A DNA stretch of 64,000 nt from Mesodorylaimus sp. YZB2_4 (Eukaryota > Nematoda > Enoplea > Dorylaimida > Dorylaimidae), in NCBI GenBank assembly GCA_030248295.1, contig JASANH010000647.1, positions 186,001 through 250,000 on the forward strand, read 5' to 3'. The position numbers were made by a program, and so were the translations under genes. Below are positions 3,702 to 63,180 of this stretch, piece after piece (position 1 is the first letter of the stretch; each line of letters opens with the position of its first letter). The notes beneath the pieces were generated by a model that did no database searches, was not told where the DNA came from, and saw only the letters and a list, made by a program, of their open reading frames with translations.

Positions 3702-5190
3702 TCACTTTGTCACTTGCCTTCCATGCTTTTTCAAGAACGATGCCTCTTTGAGCAGGGCATCATAGTCGCTGAACCCCAGTTGCTTGTACACTGTCTCGGC
3801 CCACCGTTGAGCAATGTCTTGCCTGACCTTCGGGCCAGCACTTGTGCGCCCATCGCCAATTCGCCCACCATCTTTCCGAACCATCGTGCAATTTATATTC
3901 CATTTTTCAGTGTCTATGTAATTTGCCGAAAATTGCATTATATTGTCGGCTGCAAAGCGCTTGTCATGTTTGGACATGTACTCGAAGGTGCAGAAACTGT
4001 AGACTCGAGAAAGTTCCTCTTCGTTCAGTGGCACTTGAATGAACTCTGCAATTTCTGTGATGCAGAATCGTAGGTCGCTTTTCAAATCCTCGTAGTGCAG
4101 CCACAACACGTTCGGATCGTCGCGGTGAGCATACCAGCTGGTCAAGAGAGCGTAGTAGTCGCAAAGTTTTTGGAACCATTCCAACGCTGCACCCTCCTCC
4201 ATGTCCTCTTCGGCGCCATAATACCGAAAGAAAAATTTGATAAAGGACCAATAACAATCGTAGGGATCCCGAATTATTACGATAAACTTCATACCGCCGC
4301 CTTTGGGAACCAGATCATATTTGTCGTGGCATTTGAAAACTCTAGGATTGGCCACTTGCTCAGCGTTCACATCGATTTTGTACAGAGGAACGTCAACTGC
4401 TGGTAACCACCACGTCACTTCGTAGATGTCCTGAACATGCGTAGGGGTATTAAATGTCGGTTTCAGGTCGGTCTTCTCAGGCAAATCATGATGGCTTATG
4501 CACAGCGTTTATTCAAAAGTCCCTCCTCGAAATTACCCTATTCCCCCCCCCCCCACCCTTTTGAGAATGTTTGCGGGCCTTGGTTGAAACTTGTAGCTAA
4601 GACCTCCGTGTCTGAGGCTTGCCCGGATTTCGCAATCGATTAATAGATTGGTTAGGATCTGTTGTCTGTGAAGACACTTTGGAAGTAAATGGTATATCCT
4701 ATTCCTATTCCTATACTTTTGGCTCGTGGGTTGCAAATATTCTTAAAAACCGATCCAGCATCTGCCACGGTCCATCATAAAAATTGAATTTTTCAATGAG
4801 CATATCCCCATCCAGCCACCAATCGCAGTTCACCTACCCTACGAGATGTCACTCTACTTGGGTTTTGTTGAACTGGTTTCTGGCGGGCAGTGTTAGACTA
4901 ATGTCAGAGGGCGATGTCCAGCTGACAAAAGGTAAGGGGACCCCATCAAATCAGGCGTAGGTCGCAAGTTAGTCTCAAGGCCGTACATTCCAATGTGGGT
5001 CTACATGTACCTCAAAGTTTTCATCACCCTTGGTCCGAATTTGATGAAGTATCTGTTGTAGCCACGTCGTTCCAGATTTGGGTGGTCCAACAACCACGAC
5101 ATCAGTTGGCCTTGGTTTATACGGGGAGGGCAATCGCTGGTTCGTCTCTTCGTCGCTGAAAATCTTTTGCAGCCTTTCCATTGTATCCAT
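3702..5190 (-). CDS. Cytosolic-type PAPS-dependent sulfotransferase, copy B
   Basis: Predicted to transfer sulfate from PAPS to a small hydroxyl or amine acceptor; the substrate cannot be inferred. Two minus-strand exons: 5190-5011 (60 codons) and 4430-3702, joined in phase 0 with a 580-bp intron, giving 302 aa, which fits the SULT family. Visible motifs: 5'-PSB loop PKSGTTW at residues 37-43, a catalytic-type His at about 95 in FKCHDKYDLVP, the 3'-phosphate motif RDPYDC at about 114, and a C-terminal RKDGG...GDGR segment resembling the family's RKG motif. There is no signal peptide or membrane anchor. The start at 5190 is chosen because copy A shares the same Met and both proteins diverge upstream. 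A 12-base poly-C run (4543-4554) lies in the intron. Confidence 0.85.
4543..4554. repeat. Poly-C homopolymer, 12 bp
   Basis: An uninterrupted run of 12 C in the intron of sulfotransferase copy B. Longer runs occur at 28714-28726 and 53131-53147. Confidence 0.9.
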
Positions 5191-5394
5191 CTTGATGGCT
5201 TTCGGCCTGACGTAGTGAGTTGCAATTACTGTATTTGTCGTTACGGCGGGTGATGTGTCAGGATCACAATATACTGTAAGGTGCAGCAGGGCAGGTTGAT
5301 ACTGATTGTGGTGACAGCAGGCCGAAAAGTATGAATACAGCGAGCTGTGGCTGGTATATGTAAGCCTTGTTGACTTCGTCTTTATCTGGTTGCT

Positions 5395-6075
5395 GGCGCC
5401 GTTTGCTCTGTGTTCGCGTACCCAACAGATACATTCCGATAATGGACCAGCAACTACATTTACTGCCAGTTAAACACTGTATTTTGGCAGTGCACGCTAT
5501 TTTTGACTCACAAGCAGCTCCTAGTGTCTAATAGATTGCTTATAAGTCGAGTGCTCGTCAGTGGTTCCTTTTAATTGCAACGCCTCTATGTAGACTCGTT
5601 GAGAGCGCATTGTGGATTGACAGATAATAATAGTATGATCAACGCGCCGTGAGTTGAGTGCCTGTGTACCAAACAAGTACATTTTGATAAGGGAACTATT
5701 TTGGCAGTGAACGCTGTTTCTGCAAACTCATGCAACCAGCGCACTCAGGGGGGTGGGAGATGTGCGAGACCGAAGCCTTTGAGAGCGGTAACCCTAAGCA
5801 GCGGTACTCTCCAGGCGAACTGGAAAGACGGCTGAAACATGGGTTTGATGCCTTCGTGGTGACATAGAAATGCTGGTTACACTCACAGCCTGCTCACAGG
5901 TACAGGTTGTAACGTGGGGGTTGTATCGACGTAGCGTTATCGGGGTAGTCAACGCCGGCCGTCCGCTCTGTGTTCTCGTACCCAACAAATACATTCCGAT
6001 AACGGACCAGTAACTACATGTACAGTACTGCCAGTAACACTGTATTTTGGCAGTGCACGCTATTTTTGACTTACA
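5395..6075. repeat. Three copies of an about 100-bp module upstream of sulfotransferase B
   Basis: Copies at about 5395-5515, 5622-5735 and 5937-6075, with a fourth at 2138-2240, share an ordered set of blocks: a CGTACC-like start, TACATTCCGATAA, GGACCAG, then TTTTGGCAGTGCACGCT followed by a T-rich stretch. They lie just upstream of minus-strand sulfotransferase start codons. They could be promoter or enhancer modules or a short repeat that was duplicated with the gene. Confidence 0.6.
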
Positions 6076-6477
6076 ATCAGCTCATAGTGTCTAACGTTAA
6101 TCGTAATAAGGTTGTAACGTGTGCAAATGAAGCCTCTAAAATTTGCATCAATGCAAAAATCTTTTTGGTGACGTGACTAGCAGAATGCATAATTTGAGTA
6201 TCGAGTGGTGAGTCGACTTTTTCCTATCACGAGTGTGTCTTCGCCTGTGCCTACGAGTGTCTGTCTGTCATTCAGCATGATAGTCAGCATAAATTTAATG
6301 TACAGTATTTGAACCCATCTTCCAAACTATGTTATTGCAACAAGAATGTTCAATCCAAACGAAGTGGCACAGGACGTTACAGACTGTCCCTCCTCTCTAG
6401 ATATATCTAAGCTGCTATAGTACAAGGTTATCAGTGTGATAAAATACGTATTGCATCGAAGTGCGACCCCGAAACAG

Positions 6478-6666
6478 CTAGATCTCTTCTTTGATTTTAC
6501 CATTGACGACACGTCCGAGGAAGAGGACCGACTCTGCTCTGTTGTGACGCACAACAAACAGGAAGGGATGGTCAGCATTGAAATGGGTGTTGATACGTTC
6601 GGTGTGGGACGCCCCATCATCAGGTACACCTCGAGATGGCGCCGAGTCGGTTCCATCTTCGCCAAC
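6478..6666 (-). CDS. Serpin alternative last exon c
   Basis: Phase-0 terminal exon after acceptor TGCAG: 62 codons plus TAG. The loop starts EDGTDSAPSRGV, then the conserved ADHPFLFVVRH and VLFLGRV. Pro at about P10 would hinder loop insertion, so this isoform may be a weak or non-inhibitory serpin. A decayed copy of this exon lies at about 2475-2612. Confidence 0.8.
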   Translation of the reverse strand, partial: VGEDGTDSAPSRGVPDDGASHTERINTHFNADHPFLFVVRHNRAESVLFLGRVVNGKIKEEI

Positions 6667-9600
6667 CTGCATTGCACAATATAAACATAATGCATATAAC
6701 TCATTCAGAAAATTCATGCGGCCTACTTCATTTTTGATAGATAATTCTACAGCTTCCTAATTGCTAGTCCTGAGTCTAATTTGTGCGGTTACTTATCTAA
6801 ACTAATCTAAATTGTTTCGGCACCAGGCCGTCAAACTGCATGGTTTAATTCTCAGTCCCTCGGCACTCGTCTCGGGTCTATGAAACGACCCATGAACACG
6901 GACTGGCCACTGGTCTCGTGTCGGACAGCAAAAATGAACGGGTGATCGGCGATGAAGCTCTTCGATACCAGGAAGTCGCCAACAATGCTGACGGGGACGC
7001 TGGCAACGGCATTAGCGTCCTCAGTACCACGCTCGGCTACCTGAATGTAATCAGTAGCTTGTTAAGGGGTGGGGTATGAGCACACAGGGAGGCATGTAAT
7101 GTGGATAAGGGGAAGATAATATCTGACAATCAGTACAGGGGGTCAGTGGGAATGTGGGGACTTGGTTTTTCTCTCTTCATCAGTACGAACTCCTATCAGT
7201 GATGTAAGCCCTTACCATCTCCAGGTACCGCAGACACATTATACATGCAGTATTATGCACACCATGCCAGACCAAACTAGGACAGCTACCCCGCCGCATA
7301 CGCTAAAACACGTACAGCAATGTAAGATACGCACAGGCACGATACAGTCAAGCAATCCTGTCAATCAGCGCGTCCTCCGCTTTCGCGCAGGCCCGCCTTT
7401 ATTCGGATCAATCACTCGGCCCGTTAGCAGGACGGAACCACTAGCGTTATGGCGGACAAGAAAAATGAAGGCATGCTCGGCCAAAACGAACTTGGTGTGT
7501 TCATCGAGGACAGCTCCAGGGCCATGAGCCCCGTTTGACGCTTCAGATTCCGTCCCACGTTCATCGACCTAAATCCACATTTTATCAACCGACTTTCCAC
7601 TAAAAAATGTTCGAAGAAGAAAAAGCAAGCAAAGCATCGCCGAAATCGAACGTGCGAACATCGTGCGGAAAGGAGCGAACAAGACGAAATCAAACCGCAG
7701 ATAAAACGAACCAAAATGAGCTAACGATAACGTGCAAGAGCTCTAGCACTGGCTTGCATTCGAGACTGTTTTTGCGCAATGCACACTTTACAAGCTAGCT
7801 ACACTGCACTGCACGACTTGCTCAGATTTGGCACGTGATACGCTAAAAGTAGAGTAAGCTCAGCTCCTATAAGCCATCTGCTTAAACTTGAAGCCAGTGC
7901 TGCATGCGTGCAAGCTGAACTTGCTTCTAACCACAGATATGATAGAACGTGAGATAGGAGTGCGAGTCAGACCTGTCTTGCTTGCTAATCAGCTTTGAGG
8001 CGTGAAATCAGCTAAGAGAGGAGATGCCAAAACACTTACCTTGAAATAAGCTTGGTGGACGGCGCTGGTCGTAAAAAGATCGTGTTTCTTACTGATTCCA
8101 TGCATATCACCGCTGATATCGAAGATGAGCTTGATGCCCAACGCTTGCAAGGCTTCTTTCAATCTGAAGCGGTAGTTGATGACGAACTTGGGAATGGTCA
8201 CGTCCACTTTGGTATCCTTGGCAGCAGCCATCAAACGTTCCAATTCTTTCGGCTCAAGTGTGCGTTCCAGTTGGGACAGGCCTTCTCGATTGGTGGGCAG
8301 AATGATGTAGAGGGTCAGTTCGCGCTGTTTATAATCGATACCCAACACTTGCAAGTCGGGCTGCTCGTAGTAGCGGAACGTGCCTTCCATGCTCATCATG
8401 GGTACCTCGACACCAGGTGCATTGTTTGGTGGATAGAAGAGACGATTGTAAGTGCGTCCCTCAGCGAACGACTTATCCCACTGGGCATTAAGATAGATCA
8501 CATTGATCAATACCATGCGGTCGTCTGAATCGATATTGTTTGGTTGGAAAAGATTCAAGACCTTGTACTCGGTGTGGTCACGCACCCACTCGTTGATTTG
8601 CACACGAGACGAATCTGATTTTCTTTGGAAATCGAAATTGCCCGTCACAGTATCGAAGCACTTGCTAGCAACCTCGGCGTAGTCCCTGAATATGGGGAAG
8701 TTATTGTCGACGTAGAGGGCGTTGGCCATGTGAATGCTGTACAAGTGCGACTGACCACCTTCGCCTCGCAAACTGGCTGTCAAGGCAGCAAATGCCATGG
8801 CTTCATCTTCTCCGTGCAAAGAGGGCGAGAGAATCTGGTGCAGCTCTTGTTGTGCGACCGTCTTGGCACCCACTTCCATCATGGCCAAACCGATGGCGAT
8901 AGATGTCGGTGAGAAAAGGATGTTGTCCTTGGGTGAGTCTTCGATGGCTCGTTTGTACAGGCCGAGAGCCAGTTTCAGGTTGTCCTCGTTCAGCTTAGGC
9001 AACAGGCGGTAGTCTGCCTGGCACAAATACGGCCTATCGCCGCTCGTAATTAGTTGATCCAAGGTGGGCTGATTCGCGCTCGAATTGCCTGGTGGACCAG
9101 AATCGGGAGATCCAGAAACAGGGCTCAAAGTGGAGGAGGAAGAGGAGGCGCTGGTCGAGGCACTGGTGCTGGAAGAAGTCGAACTGTCGGAGGAGGCTCC
9201 ATCATTGCTGCCCGGTGAAGTAGATGAACTCCCACTGGTCGATGAGGAGCTGCTTGAAGCGGAAGTGCTTGAGGAGGTCGATGAGGAGGTCGATGTGCTG
9301 GTTGAGGTGCTGGTCGAAGTACTCGTCGATGTGCTAGTACTTGTGCTAGTCGATGTGCTGCTGCTGGTCGAGCTTTCCGAAGTACTACTGGATCCCGTAG
9401 AGCTCGTGCTGCCAGTGGTATCCTTGGATTCGCTGTCAACTCCCGCAGGCAGATTGGGGGCCGCGTCTGCGAGCACTGTACCTTGCTTACATCTGTTGCA
9501 CGTTTTCGGGCACCAGTGCTTTTGGAAAGTTCCTTCGGCCAATTTCTCACAGAAACCAGCCCAACTGGTGCATACGGGGGACAGATCGACGCAAAGGCTC

Positions 9601-10565
9601 GTTAGTTGTTGGTCCGAGTCTGAAAATGACACAAACTGTCACATTGACGTACGCAGATCACAGACCATGGCAAATATAAACTCTACGAGTAATCCTTTCA
9701 TGTGGTCTATCATCTAGGGCATGTCAAGGGGGGGCGAAACCCTCATGCCCCATTCGCATGCATCACGTATTTCCGTCTTTTTAACGCTCTTTCGCACAAT
9801 AAGACAAGAGTCGTAAGGGCTGTCATAAAGCCAGTTGACACAACTCATGGTCGAAATTGTAGTCTAAACGATGCGGCGATCGTAACCTGACAAAGGGCTC
9901 TATTCCACCTGGCCTAAGTACCACTCACATTCTCTTCATGAGTTTCAAGGCTCCAGAATCGGATGGAAACGTGACTTTTATGTCCCCCGATTGGCCACTG
10001 CAATTTGTGGTGTCATAACTTCACTAGCGACTGCGGCACCTGAACCAGGCGGTTTAGAAAAGATTAGAAAAAGACCCGTTCTTGTAACTTTATCTTGATC
10101 GCACCTGAATATTATAACCATGAATTGGACATCATGGAAGTAGCCCGGGAGAAAATGTGCACCGGAAAGTTGCAGTGATCAGTACAAAATATGTGAAGTG
10201 TGCACATATTTTGATCGCTAATGCATTCCCTGGTCGCAATGCACAAGTGGCAAACGTTGATGCTGAAATGCACTTCTATTAAAAGCAATGTTTTTTCAGG
10301 CCGAACCCCAAGACAAGCTACAAGGGACTCACACTGAACAGTCAAGTGCTCAATGGGCAAGAAGGTTTTTCTTGCGCAAGCTACTTTCATGGACAGTTAG
10401 GTACAGGATGTGGTGGGGTGGGTTGGGTAATGCGGTGGTTGTATGTAATGTGCCAGGAATGGCGAGACAAAATGCCACGTAGTACCCACCTGATTTGACG
10501 CCATCTCCGCGAACAGTCGATATTGCCACGAGAAGGATGATAAACACGATCGAGCGTTGAGCCAT
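6478..10565 (-). CDS. Secreted ShKT-domain serpin with three alternative reactive-loop last exons
   Basis: Minus strand. Exon 1 (10565-10490) encodes a signal peptide (hydrophobic core IVFIILLVAI). Exon 2 (9619-8040, joined in phase) encodes a ShKT domain with six Cys ending TCNRC, a long Ser/Thr-rich linker, and the serpin body through AVHQAYFK. Three last exons can then be joined in phase 0, each with its own stop: 7568-7365 (67 aa), 7040-6852 (62 aa) and 6666-6478 (62 aa). Each begins with a serpin hinge (ERGTE, ERGTE, EDGTD) and ends in the conserved strand pattern, e.g. ADHPFLFVVRH then LFLGRV. Predicted products are 614-619 aa. The 7040 version has the most inhibitor-like hinge (small residues at P12-P9); the 6666 version has a Pro there. 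Such exon sets are known for insect serpins and change target protease. An in-frame ATG at 10574 is an alternative start. Confidence 0.88.
6852..7040 (-). CDS. Serpin alternative last exon b
   Basis: Phase-0 terminal exon with the same length (189 nt) as exon c. The hinge ERGTEDANAVAS is the closest of the three to the small-residue inhibitory consensus, followed by ADHPFIFAVRH and SVFMGRFIDP. The isoform using it is the best candidate for a true protease inhibitor. Confidence 0.8.
   Translation of the reverse strand, partial: VAERGTEDANAVASVPVSIVGDFLVSKSFIADHPFIFAVRHETSGQSVFMGRFIDPRRVPRD
7365..7568 (-). CDS. Serpin alternative last exon a
   Basis: Phase-0 terminal exon, 67 codons plus TGA. 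The hinge is ERGTESEASNGA, followed by AEHAFIFLVRH and VLLTGRVIDP. It sits closest to the shared exon 8040-9619 and ends in a basic tail absent from the other two cassettes. Confidence 0.8.
   Translation of the reverse strand, partial: VDERGTESEASNGAHGPGAVLDEHTKFVLAEHAFIFLVRHNASGSVLLTGRVIDPNKGGPARKRRTR
9120..9420 (-). repeat. Ser/Thr low-complexity coding tract in the serpin linker
   Basis: Alternating Ser-Thr codons encode a long mucin-like linker between the ShKT and serpin domains. It is likely O-glycosylated and extended. The antisense frame (Glu/Val/Leu-rich) is a by-product of this repeat. Confidence 0.8.
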
Positions 10566-14627: not shown

Positions 14628-14699
14628 GCCGTGATCGTCTAGTGGTTAGGACATTACGTTGTGGCCGTAATAACCCAGGTTCGAATCCTGGTCACGGCA
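14628..14699 (+). tRNA. tRNA-His: tRNA-His (GTG anticodon)
   Basis: A 72-nt cloverleaf: acceptor stem GCCGTGA pairs with TCACGGC, D arm contains TAGTGGTTA, anticodon loop TTGTGGC with anticodon GTG, and T loop TTCGAATCC. Both internal Pol III promoter boxes are present and a T-run follows immediately. There is no intron. The G at 14627 would supply position -1, though in eukaryotes that G is usually added after transcription. Confidence 0.95.
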
Positions 14700-61465: not shown

Positions 61466-63180
61466 ATGAAGGCGAAGGTTTTTCAGGACATGAATTCGAT
61501 ATTCGGTATTCTTGCAATCACTGCGACTTTATTTGCTGTAAGTAATCATTCCATATTGATCCCATACATGCTCTGTAACATGCCATTTTTGAAGGCCACT
61601 CAAATCCAAATCGGGCAGTCGCAATCGAACCAGTATGTGCGAGGCTGCTATTACACCAACTGGGCTCAGTATCGTCCCAACAAGGGCAAGTACACGCCTG
61701 AGAACTACATGCCTGGTTTGTGCACTCACATCTTCTACGCTTTTGTGATCATGGACAATAGTTTCAATTTGAAGTAAGCTTATGACTGAATGGTCTCTAG
61801 AGTGACACTGACGGTCTCGTTCAGACCGTTCGAATGGAACGACGAAGATGAGCAATGGTCGATTGGCAATTACCACAAGGTTGTCAACTTGAAGCAGCAG
61901 CAACCAGACCTCAAGGTCGTGCTGTCGTTCGGTGGTTGGACCTACTCAGAAAATAATGCGGGTCTTTTGACCAGTATGGCCTCGTCAGCGGCCAGCCGCG
62001 CTACATTCATCGACTCAGTCGTCAAATTCGTTCGTCGTATCAACTTTGACGGGTTCGATATCGATTGGGAATATCCTGCAGCGCATGATAAAGCCAATTT
62101 TGCAGCCTTGGTCAAAGAAATGCGTGCAGCCTTCGAAAAAGATGCCCAGGCCAGCGGGAAACCGCGTCTGCTCTTGACTGCGGCAGTGGCTGCTGGTATT
62201 TCAAAAATCAACGCTGGATACGACGGCCAACAGTTGGGCAAAGACTTTGACTACGTCAACATCATGTCCTACGATTTCCACGGTGGATGGGAACAGCAAA
62301 CGGGATTCAATAGCCCGTTGCATGATCGGAATGGAGATCAGTTGGCCATCAGTGTGGCTGCCGAACACTGGCACAAGATTGGTATCCCCAAGTCAAAGTT
62401 GCTGGTTGGCCTGGGCACGTATGGACGAGGATGGACCTTGGCCAGCGCGAGCAACTCTGGTGTTGGCGCTCCAACGGCTGGGTCGGCCCCGACTTTGCCT
62501 TACTCTAGGGAAGCTGGTATCGCCACTTATTACGAGATTTGCGATCTGATCGAAAAAGAGGGCTACCAAGAGCGCTATGATGACCAGCAGCAATCCCCTT
62601 ACGTTGTGGGTGGTCCGGGAAATAACGTATGGATCGGCTATGACAACGTGCAAAGCTTCAACGCCAAGTTGGATTGGATTAAGGCTAACGGATACGGCGG
62701 TGCCTTCATCTGGGCCTTAGATATGGACGACTTTCACGGACAATGCGCTTCGAGCCGAGGACAAAAATATCCTCTCATGAGTGCAATCAATGCCAAGCTG
62801 GGCGGTGGAGCTGTGAGTGAGCCTAGCTACCAGTGCTAGTCAAGTCTCTTATCAGTCTTGCTTTGTAGCCCCCTCCTGGCCCGCAACCAACAATCACACC
62901 ACGACCCACTCAACCGCAGCAGCCTGAAACGCAAAAGCCATCTCAAACACCTCAGACCCCTGCGCCGACAGCCGCTCCAACGCGCCCACCGCAACAACCC
63001 GGGGGCCCCTTCCGTTGCCCATCGCCAGGAAACTTTGGCAACCCCTCCTCGTGCAAAACGTTCTACATGTGTGATGCCCAGAAGAACGCTCATCTATTCA
63101 CATGCCCCGCCGGCTTGGAGTTCAACGACGCAGCTGGGTACTGCGATTGGCCAGACAATGCCAAATGCAAACGAAGCTAG
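61466..63180 (+). CDS. Secreted GH18 chitinase with C-terminal chitin-binding domain
   Basis: Endochitinase that cleaves beta-1,4-GlcNAc chains, likely in cuticle or gut-lining turnover. Four exons, 61466-61537, 61595-61773, 61825-62812 and 62869-63180, phases agree, 516 aa. Exon 1 is a signal peptide (ATG at 61466 or 61490). The GH18 barrel shows GCYYTNWAQYRP, FGGWTYS, the catalytic DGFDIDWEYP (DxxDxDxE intact), MSYDFHGGWE and FIWALDMDDF. A Pro/Thr/Gln-rich linker then leads to a peritrophin-A/CBM14 domain with six Cys ending CDWPDNAKC. Retention of the 56-bp last intron adds VSEPSYQC and a stop, giving a linker-less enzyme without the binding domain. A poly(A) signal lies at 63270. Confidence 0.95.

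Follow-up and report, generated by a model that had tools for sequence, protein, structure and literature searches.

Swapping of the exon that carries the reactive loop is currently understood as a route by which one serpin gene yields many inhibitors. Insects are an established case of alternative loop exons (PMC10513286, PMC4006314); in 161 of the 192 insect cassette genes covered in PMC10513286 the splice site lies at position +1, immediately behind the hinge, so that the isoforms of these genes have the hinge in common. The initial annotation of the gene described here presented loop-exon swapping as an insect feature; this holds for insects but is incomplete, as nematode (Caenorhabditis) cassettes have been on record since 2002 (Krüger et al., Gene 293:97-105, as cited in PMC4006314, PMC2556349, and PMC2770083). 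Non-inhibitory serpins without the hinge motif make up 12 of the 29 serpin genes of D. melanogaster according to PMC2770083, and an ShKT domain combined with a Ser-rich low-complexity region is described in PMC9477421 as a known design of nematode secreted mucins.

We analyzed a 64-kb stretch of DNA (hereafter the window; C17:186001-250000) from a nematode genome of 145 Mb in 1,067 contigs. It holds a serpin gene with three candidate last exons, whose features are as follows, in window coordinates.

10565..10490, minus strand: exon 1, with the start codon at 10565, an end in phase 1, and the donor CAG/GTGGGT at 10490
Within 10490..10565, minus strand: exon 1 N-terminus MAQRSIVFIILLVAISTVRG, signal-peptide-like by eye
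9619..8040, minus strand: exon 2, with the ShKT domain, the Ser/Thr linker, and the serpin body in a single exon
9489..9593, minus strand: ShKT domain with six cysteines (PF01549, 25.1 bits; cut-off 20.9)
9033..9488, minus strand: Ser/Thr-rich (mucin-like) linker, 152 aa long with 95 Ser or Thr residues
8043..8981, minus strand: serpin body (PF00079, 259.7 bits, E 6.5e-77, profile positions 3-315 of 370)
7568..7365, minus strand: alternative last exon 1, 67 aa and a stop, hinge ERGTESEASN
7040..6852, minus strand: alternative last exon 2, 62 aa and a stop, hinge ERGTEDANAV
6666..6478, minus strand: alternative last exon 3, 62 aa and a stop, hinge EDGTDSAPSR
6844..6849, minus strand: ATTAAA, 2 bases past the stop of last exon 2, a possible poly(A) signal (weak, one hexamer)
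6294..6299, minus strand: ATTAAA, 178 bases past the stop of last exon 3, a possible poly(A) signal of the gene (weak, one hexamer)

The final base of exon 1, a G, forms the junction codon with the AC of exon 2, and the joined frame is open over 552 aa. The body exon ends in TTCAAG/GTAAGT at 8040, a donor common to the three candidate last exons, each of which is open, has a length that is a multiple of three, is immediately preceded by AG, continues the body in phase 0, and brings its own stop. The predicted joined products are 619, 614, and 614 aa long (last exons 1, 2, and 3), with a single stop at the end. Coordinates, frames, and preceding AGs thus all agree with the three phase-0 last exons originally annotated, and the locus has the layout of a loop-exon cassette, with several phase-compatible loop exons behind one body. 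That the three exons are used in a mutually exclusive manner is suggested by their stops and phase.

The last exons match PF00079 at profile positions 317-370 with 31.2, 39.4, and 41.5 bits (last exons 1, 2, and 3; curated Pfam cut-off 27 bits), complementing the part of the profile covered by the body and placing the joined protein in the serpin superfamily. A genome-wide Pfam serpin search (E 0.001) gave at least 129 matches; last exons 2 and 3 are among those listed, last exon 1 is absent, and no other serpin body in the 64-kb window appears among them. The complementary profile parts and the lack of a second body among these matches bear out the annotated structure of one shared serpin body with three alternative last exons behind it. 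A profile HMM built from the other loop exons of the genome, with all three C17 exons left out, recovered last exons 1, 2, and 3 in the window at 31.3, 52.1, and 45.3 bits. Its next match in the window reached 7.3 bits, so no fourth loop-exon copy was found there. A chance origin of these matches was rejected, the best of 20 shuffles of the window (base pairs) scoring 9.8 bits against the 31.3-52.1 bits observed.

Among solved serpins, 162 distinct sequences matched the body with E values no higher than 1e-20, 9j88_B being the best (E 6.8e-45), and antithrombin, antichymotrypsin, ovalbumin, and maspin are included in the best 60 of the 162. Ovalbumin and maspin are non-inhibitory serpins. Within the genome, identity of the C17 body to any of 20 other bodies does not exceed 32%, and its branch is long; a scan of viral contigs for this body gave no match.

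Upstream of the body, the Pfam match and the composition of the linker confirm that an ShKT domain and a mucin-like linker are joined to the serpin. The six-cysteine ShKT domain was also recovered genome-wide (C17:195489-195593, E 1.7e-4), its cysteines are spaced C-x6-C-x6-C-x12-C-x3-C-x2-C, and an imperfect 12/24-base tandem repeat lies within the linker at 9277-9360. The genome holds at least 73 ShK matches (150 of 167 candidates scored), and among the 73 listed that of C17 is the only one sharing an open frame with a serpin (compared by eye); the next closest ShK-serpin pair among them, on C72, is ∼6 kb apart and on opposite strands. No ShKT-serpin fusion was found in the one open-access literature collection searched, including the available text of PMC4224354 and PMC9699480, which is weak evidence of absence because it covers a single collection.

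Elsewhere in the window, sulfotransferase-domain pieces lie on the minus strand at 655-1173, 3705-4508, and 4978-5469, the first two of which look very alike by eye and may represent tandem genes or a duplicate. The plus strand carries a chitinase-like open frame of glycosyl hydrolase family 18 (61790-62836, E 2.1e-83) and a tRNA gene (14628-14699), the sole Rfam match of the window that reaches the gathering score, and the window also has a weak Srsx/Srv chemoreceptor match. Genome-wide, profile searches gave 133 cuticle-collagen N-terminal and 27 TTR-52 matches; the Chitin_bind_4 profile had none, nor did its control. Cuticle collagens, TTR-52, and Srsx/Srv chemoreceptors are families characteristic of nematodes, and their matches indicate a nematode host. 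Fifteen cox1 matches occur on several contigs (L009, L010, L011, and others), some with TAA or TAG stops and many partial, with one cox1 frame open under code 5; either mitochondrial DNA has been copied into the nucleus, or contig C73 was assembled with mitochondrial sequence.

Other serpins of this genome share the split before the hinge. In 17 of the 20 further bodies compared, GT comes directly after the conserved end (by eye; not seen in C10, C19, and C31), and AG directly precedes the hinge in all 23 other loop exons compared, as in C17, so an intron before the hinge is a putative family feature in this genome. At least two serpin genes have multiple loop exons, C17 with three and C70 with five, the latter located as follows.

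6911-3076, minus strand, in L021 (G000:C70:205501-215500): C70 gene, one body and five phase-0 loop exons
6911-6747, 6423-6256, 4755-4588, 4335-4174, 3243-3076, minus strand: the C70 loop exons, phase 0

Two further serpin genes (L028 and L029, C92:61558-62748 and C92:243519-244703) are near-identical and lie ∼181 kb apart in opposite orientation, with a short insert and a Ser/Cys substitution distinguishing their loops. Lone serpin loop exons were also seen in L032 (2836-2997, C138), where the exon starts directly after AG, and in L033 (2939-3109, C153:64445).

We compared the hinges with the two patterns given in PMC2770083, a general one, E[EKR]G[TS].(AGS)4 at P17-P9, and a wider Drosophilid form extending to P8. 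The hinge and tree comparisons used 26 of 29 rows, dropping L023/C19, L024/C31 (partial), and a 9.8-bit match in L026; the hinge of the dropped L023/C19 row, EEKATTASV, would also fail. Ten of the 32 loop-exon matches fall outside the hinge count (C403, C125, C138, C68:157625, C83, C775, C153:64445, C92:90669, C19:991307, and C204), among which C138 would pass with P16 free and C153:64445, without the P15 Gly, would not.

None of the three C17 exons carries the hinge of inhibitory serpins in either form, whether or not P16 is left free. Among the 23 other split loop exons, five match the general pattern as printed (C70 a, b, and e, C68a, and C68b) and nine the Drosophilid one, rising to 22 for the Drosophilid pattern with P16 free, when only C70_d fails, with Phe at P14. 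The as-printed shortfall is due mainly to P16, where this genome often has N, D, or S, and the hinge contrast therefore rests on leaving this position free.

The departures of the C17 exons lie at P12-P8. Last exon 1 has E at P11, last exon 2 has D at P12 and N at P10, and last exon 3 has P at P10, so that each carries one or two residues other than A, G, S, or T at P12-P9. Position P8 is N, V, and R, respectively, with no T or S, compared to T or S in all 23 others. All three exons keep Glu at P17, Gly at P15, and Thr at P14, and last exons 1 and 3 have A, G, S, or T at three of the four positions P12-P9, a count equal to that of C68c, C38, and C153, which carry the Val at P9 permitted by the Drosophilid pattern. 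The serpin hinge originally assigned to each exon is thus present in its P17, P15, and P14 residues but matches the inhibitory patterns in none, and the accompanying claim that the gene makes three inhibitors finds weak support, since all three loops leave the hinge at P12-P8 while 22 of 23 others match with P16 free. With these three residues intact and a normal body core, some inhibition is possible.

On balance, we favor the reading that a single nematode gene exchanges three loops on a serpin that is mostly non-inhibitory or substrate-like and is fused to an ShKT-mucin part. The strongest competitor is the view of the initial annotation, that the gene is a classical cassette encoding three genuine inhibitors that target different proteases and whose hinge can accommodate the changes. 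The retained hinge residues and small-residue counts of last exons 1 and 3 fit it, as do a complete serpin body and loops of ordinary length (P17 to the A[DE]H motif spans 27, 28, and 28 residues, compared to 28 in C127a, by eye), and the C70 gene shows that the same genome has a cassette with good hinges. Like C17, C70 combines a body with several phase-0 loop exons; it differs in that the printed Drosophilid pattern fits four of its five hinges (all but the one with Phe at P14) and the printed general pattern three, against none of three in C17, and in that no ShK lies on its contig among the matches listed, against the ShKT domain of C17. C70 is thereby a putative classical cassette and a clearer multi-inhibitor candidate than C17. 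Given the non-consensus residues at P12-P10 and the lack of T or S at P8, in addition to the failure of all three C17 exons against both hinge patterns, we consider three true inhibitors a rather unlikely outcome for C17.

A further alternative is that a single last exon is used, most likely that at 7040 or 6666, the others being decaying or unused copies. All three acceptors are weak: leave-one-out scores are 1.5, 3.7, and 3.5 for last exons 1, 2, and 3 (lowest, fourth lowest, and third lowest of 26), close to C70_e (1.6) and C10 (3.8), and 8 of the 101 AG sites between 8039 and 6400 outscore the best of them. The 324 bases that separate last exons 1 and 2 contain none of ten kinds of poly(A) hexamer; in C70, AATAAA or ATTAAA follows three of the five exons, and only rarer hexamers follow the other two. 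Last exon 1 also has the lowest HMM score, is the one absent from the listed genome-wide Pfam matches, and has a codon score per codon of -0.127, inside the noncoding range (maximum -0.021 in 53 stretches) and slightly below that of its frame +1; last exons 2 and 3, with 0.095 and 0.026, barely exceed that maximum, so that codon usage adds little.

Single-exon use sits poorly with three exons that are all open with an AG in phase, and with strand motifs retained despite deep divergence, which would be difficult to account for if the exons were unused. Over the 24 codons of the C-terminal core after the loop, pN is 0.28-0.34 and pS 0.62-0.74 between the C17 copies (pN 0.38-0.51 of pS), resembling the five C70 copies (pN 0.22-0.31, pS 0.49-1.05), although pS is near saturation and the comparison is rough; all three C17 last exons therefore look constrained, similarly to the C70 copies. 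We regard single-exon use as improbable. The pattern of poly(A) signals and acceptors leads us to think that exons would be chosen by their 3' splice site and that transcripts with last exon 1 may continue through the copies downstream.

Duplication of a single last exon inside the gene is the most likely origin of the three. In the loop-exon tree a branch separates them from the 23 others with support 96/83, or 100/97 counting only the C17 and C70 rows, bearing in mind that the long C17 branches may attract each other, and they have VRH in common. Pairwise similarities are less orderly: last exon 1 is 50% identical to last exon 3, 45% to C127a, and 40% to last exon 2, and a BLAST-type search with last exon 2 ranks C52 (33.6 bits) and C68 (33.1 bits) slightly above last exon 1 (31.9 bits), with last exon 3 at 25.7 bits. 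That the extra exons instead belong to separate serpin genes, with bodies elsewhere or lost, has these rankings and the body-less loop exons C138 and C153:64445 (none detected within about 2.8-2.9 kb upstream) in its favor, but is hardly credible for exons that group together and lie 324 and 185 bases apart on one strand in a window with no other serpin body among the matches listed.

Under the favored reading of three swapped loops on a mostly non-inhibitory or substrate-like serpin, the gene product would be secreted, consisting of a signal peptide, the ShKT domain, the Ser/Thr-rich mucin-like linker, and the serpin body. The donor at 8040 could be joined to any of the acceptors at 7568, 7040, and 6666, and each choice would add a complete serpin C-terminus (hinge, reactive loop, and last strands) and a stop, such that the isoforms would differ only in their last 62-67 residues; because the intron precedes the hinge, each exon would bring its own. 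Judging from the P12-P8 departures in all three, the products would mostly not be efficient suicide inhibitors, and the three loops would more likely be shown as protease substrates or binding surfaces, while the ShKT-mucin part may hold the serpin scaffold in mucus or a surface coat. More tentatively, this could be a cassette that works without protease inhibition, an ShKT-mucin-anchored scaffold whose three loops serve as bait or ligand surfaces and whose output is loop cleavage or binding instead of protease trapping.

If three off-consensus loops are kept and expressed, exon swapping would serve another use of the serpin loop, and non-inhibitory serpin function would become testable by comparing isoforms. 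In addition, the fusion connects the ShKT-mucin design known from nematode secretions with a serpin. Toxocara canis MUC-1 type mucins likewise have a signal peptide, a Ser-rich low-complexity region, and ShKT domains (PMC9477421), but as described there MUC-1 has two ShKT domains and no serpin, whereas C17 has one ShKT domain, placed before the linker, and a serpin. The C17 protein accordingly falls outside the Tc-MUC type, in which the ShKT domains are paired.

Among serpins, C17 resembles Manduca sexta serpin-1, Drosophila Spn42Da, Pteromalus PpSerpin-1, and the Caenorhabditis cassettes in having one body and several alternatively joined loop exons (PMC4006314, PMC2770083). It differs from the insect cassettes, most of which splice after the hinge (PMC10513286), in that its intron precedes the hinge, each exon has its own off-consensus hinge, and an ShKT domain and a mucin-like linker are added. 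With the non-inhibitory serpins of D. melanogaster it shares the serpin fold and a broken run of small hinge residues (PMC2770083); in the accounts available, cassettes are described for Spn42Da and not for those non-inhibitory serpins, whereas C17 keeps three off-consensus loops in one gene. As a cassette gene alone, C17 is one more nematode example. Its cassette layout is of a known kind, of which it is a variant by its off-consensus hinges, the position of the hinge within the swapped exon, and its ShKT-mucin part.
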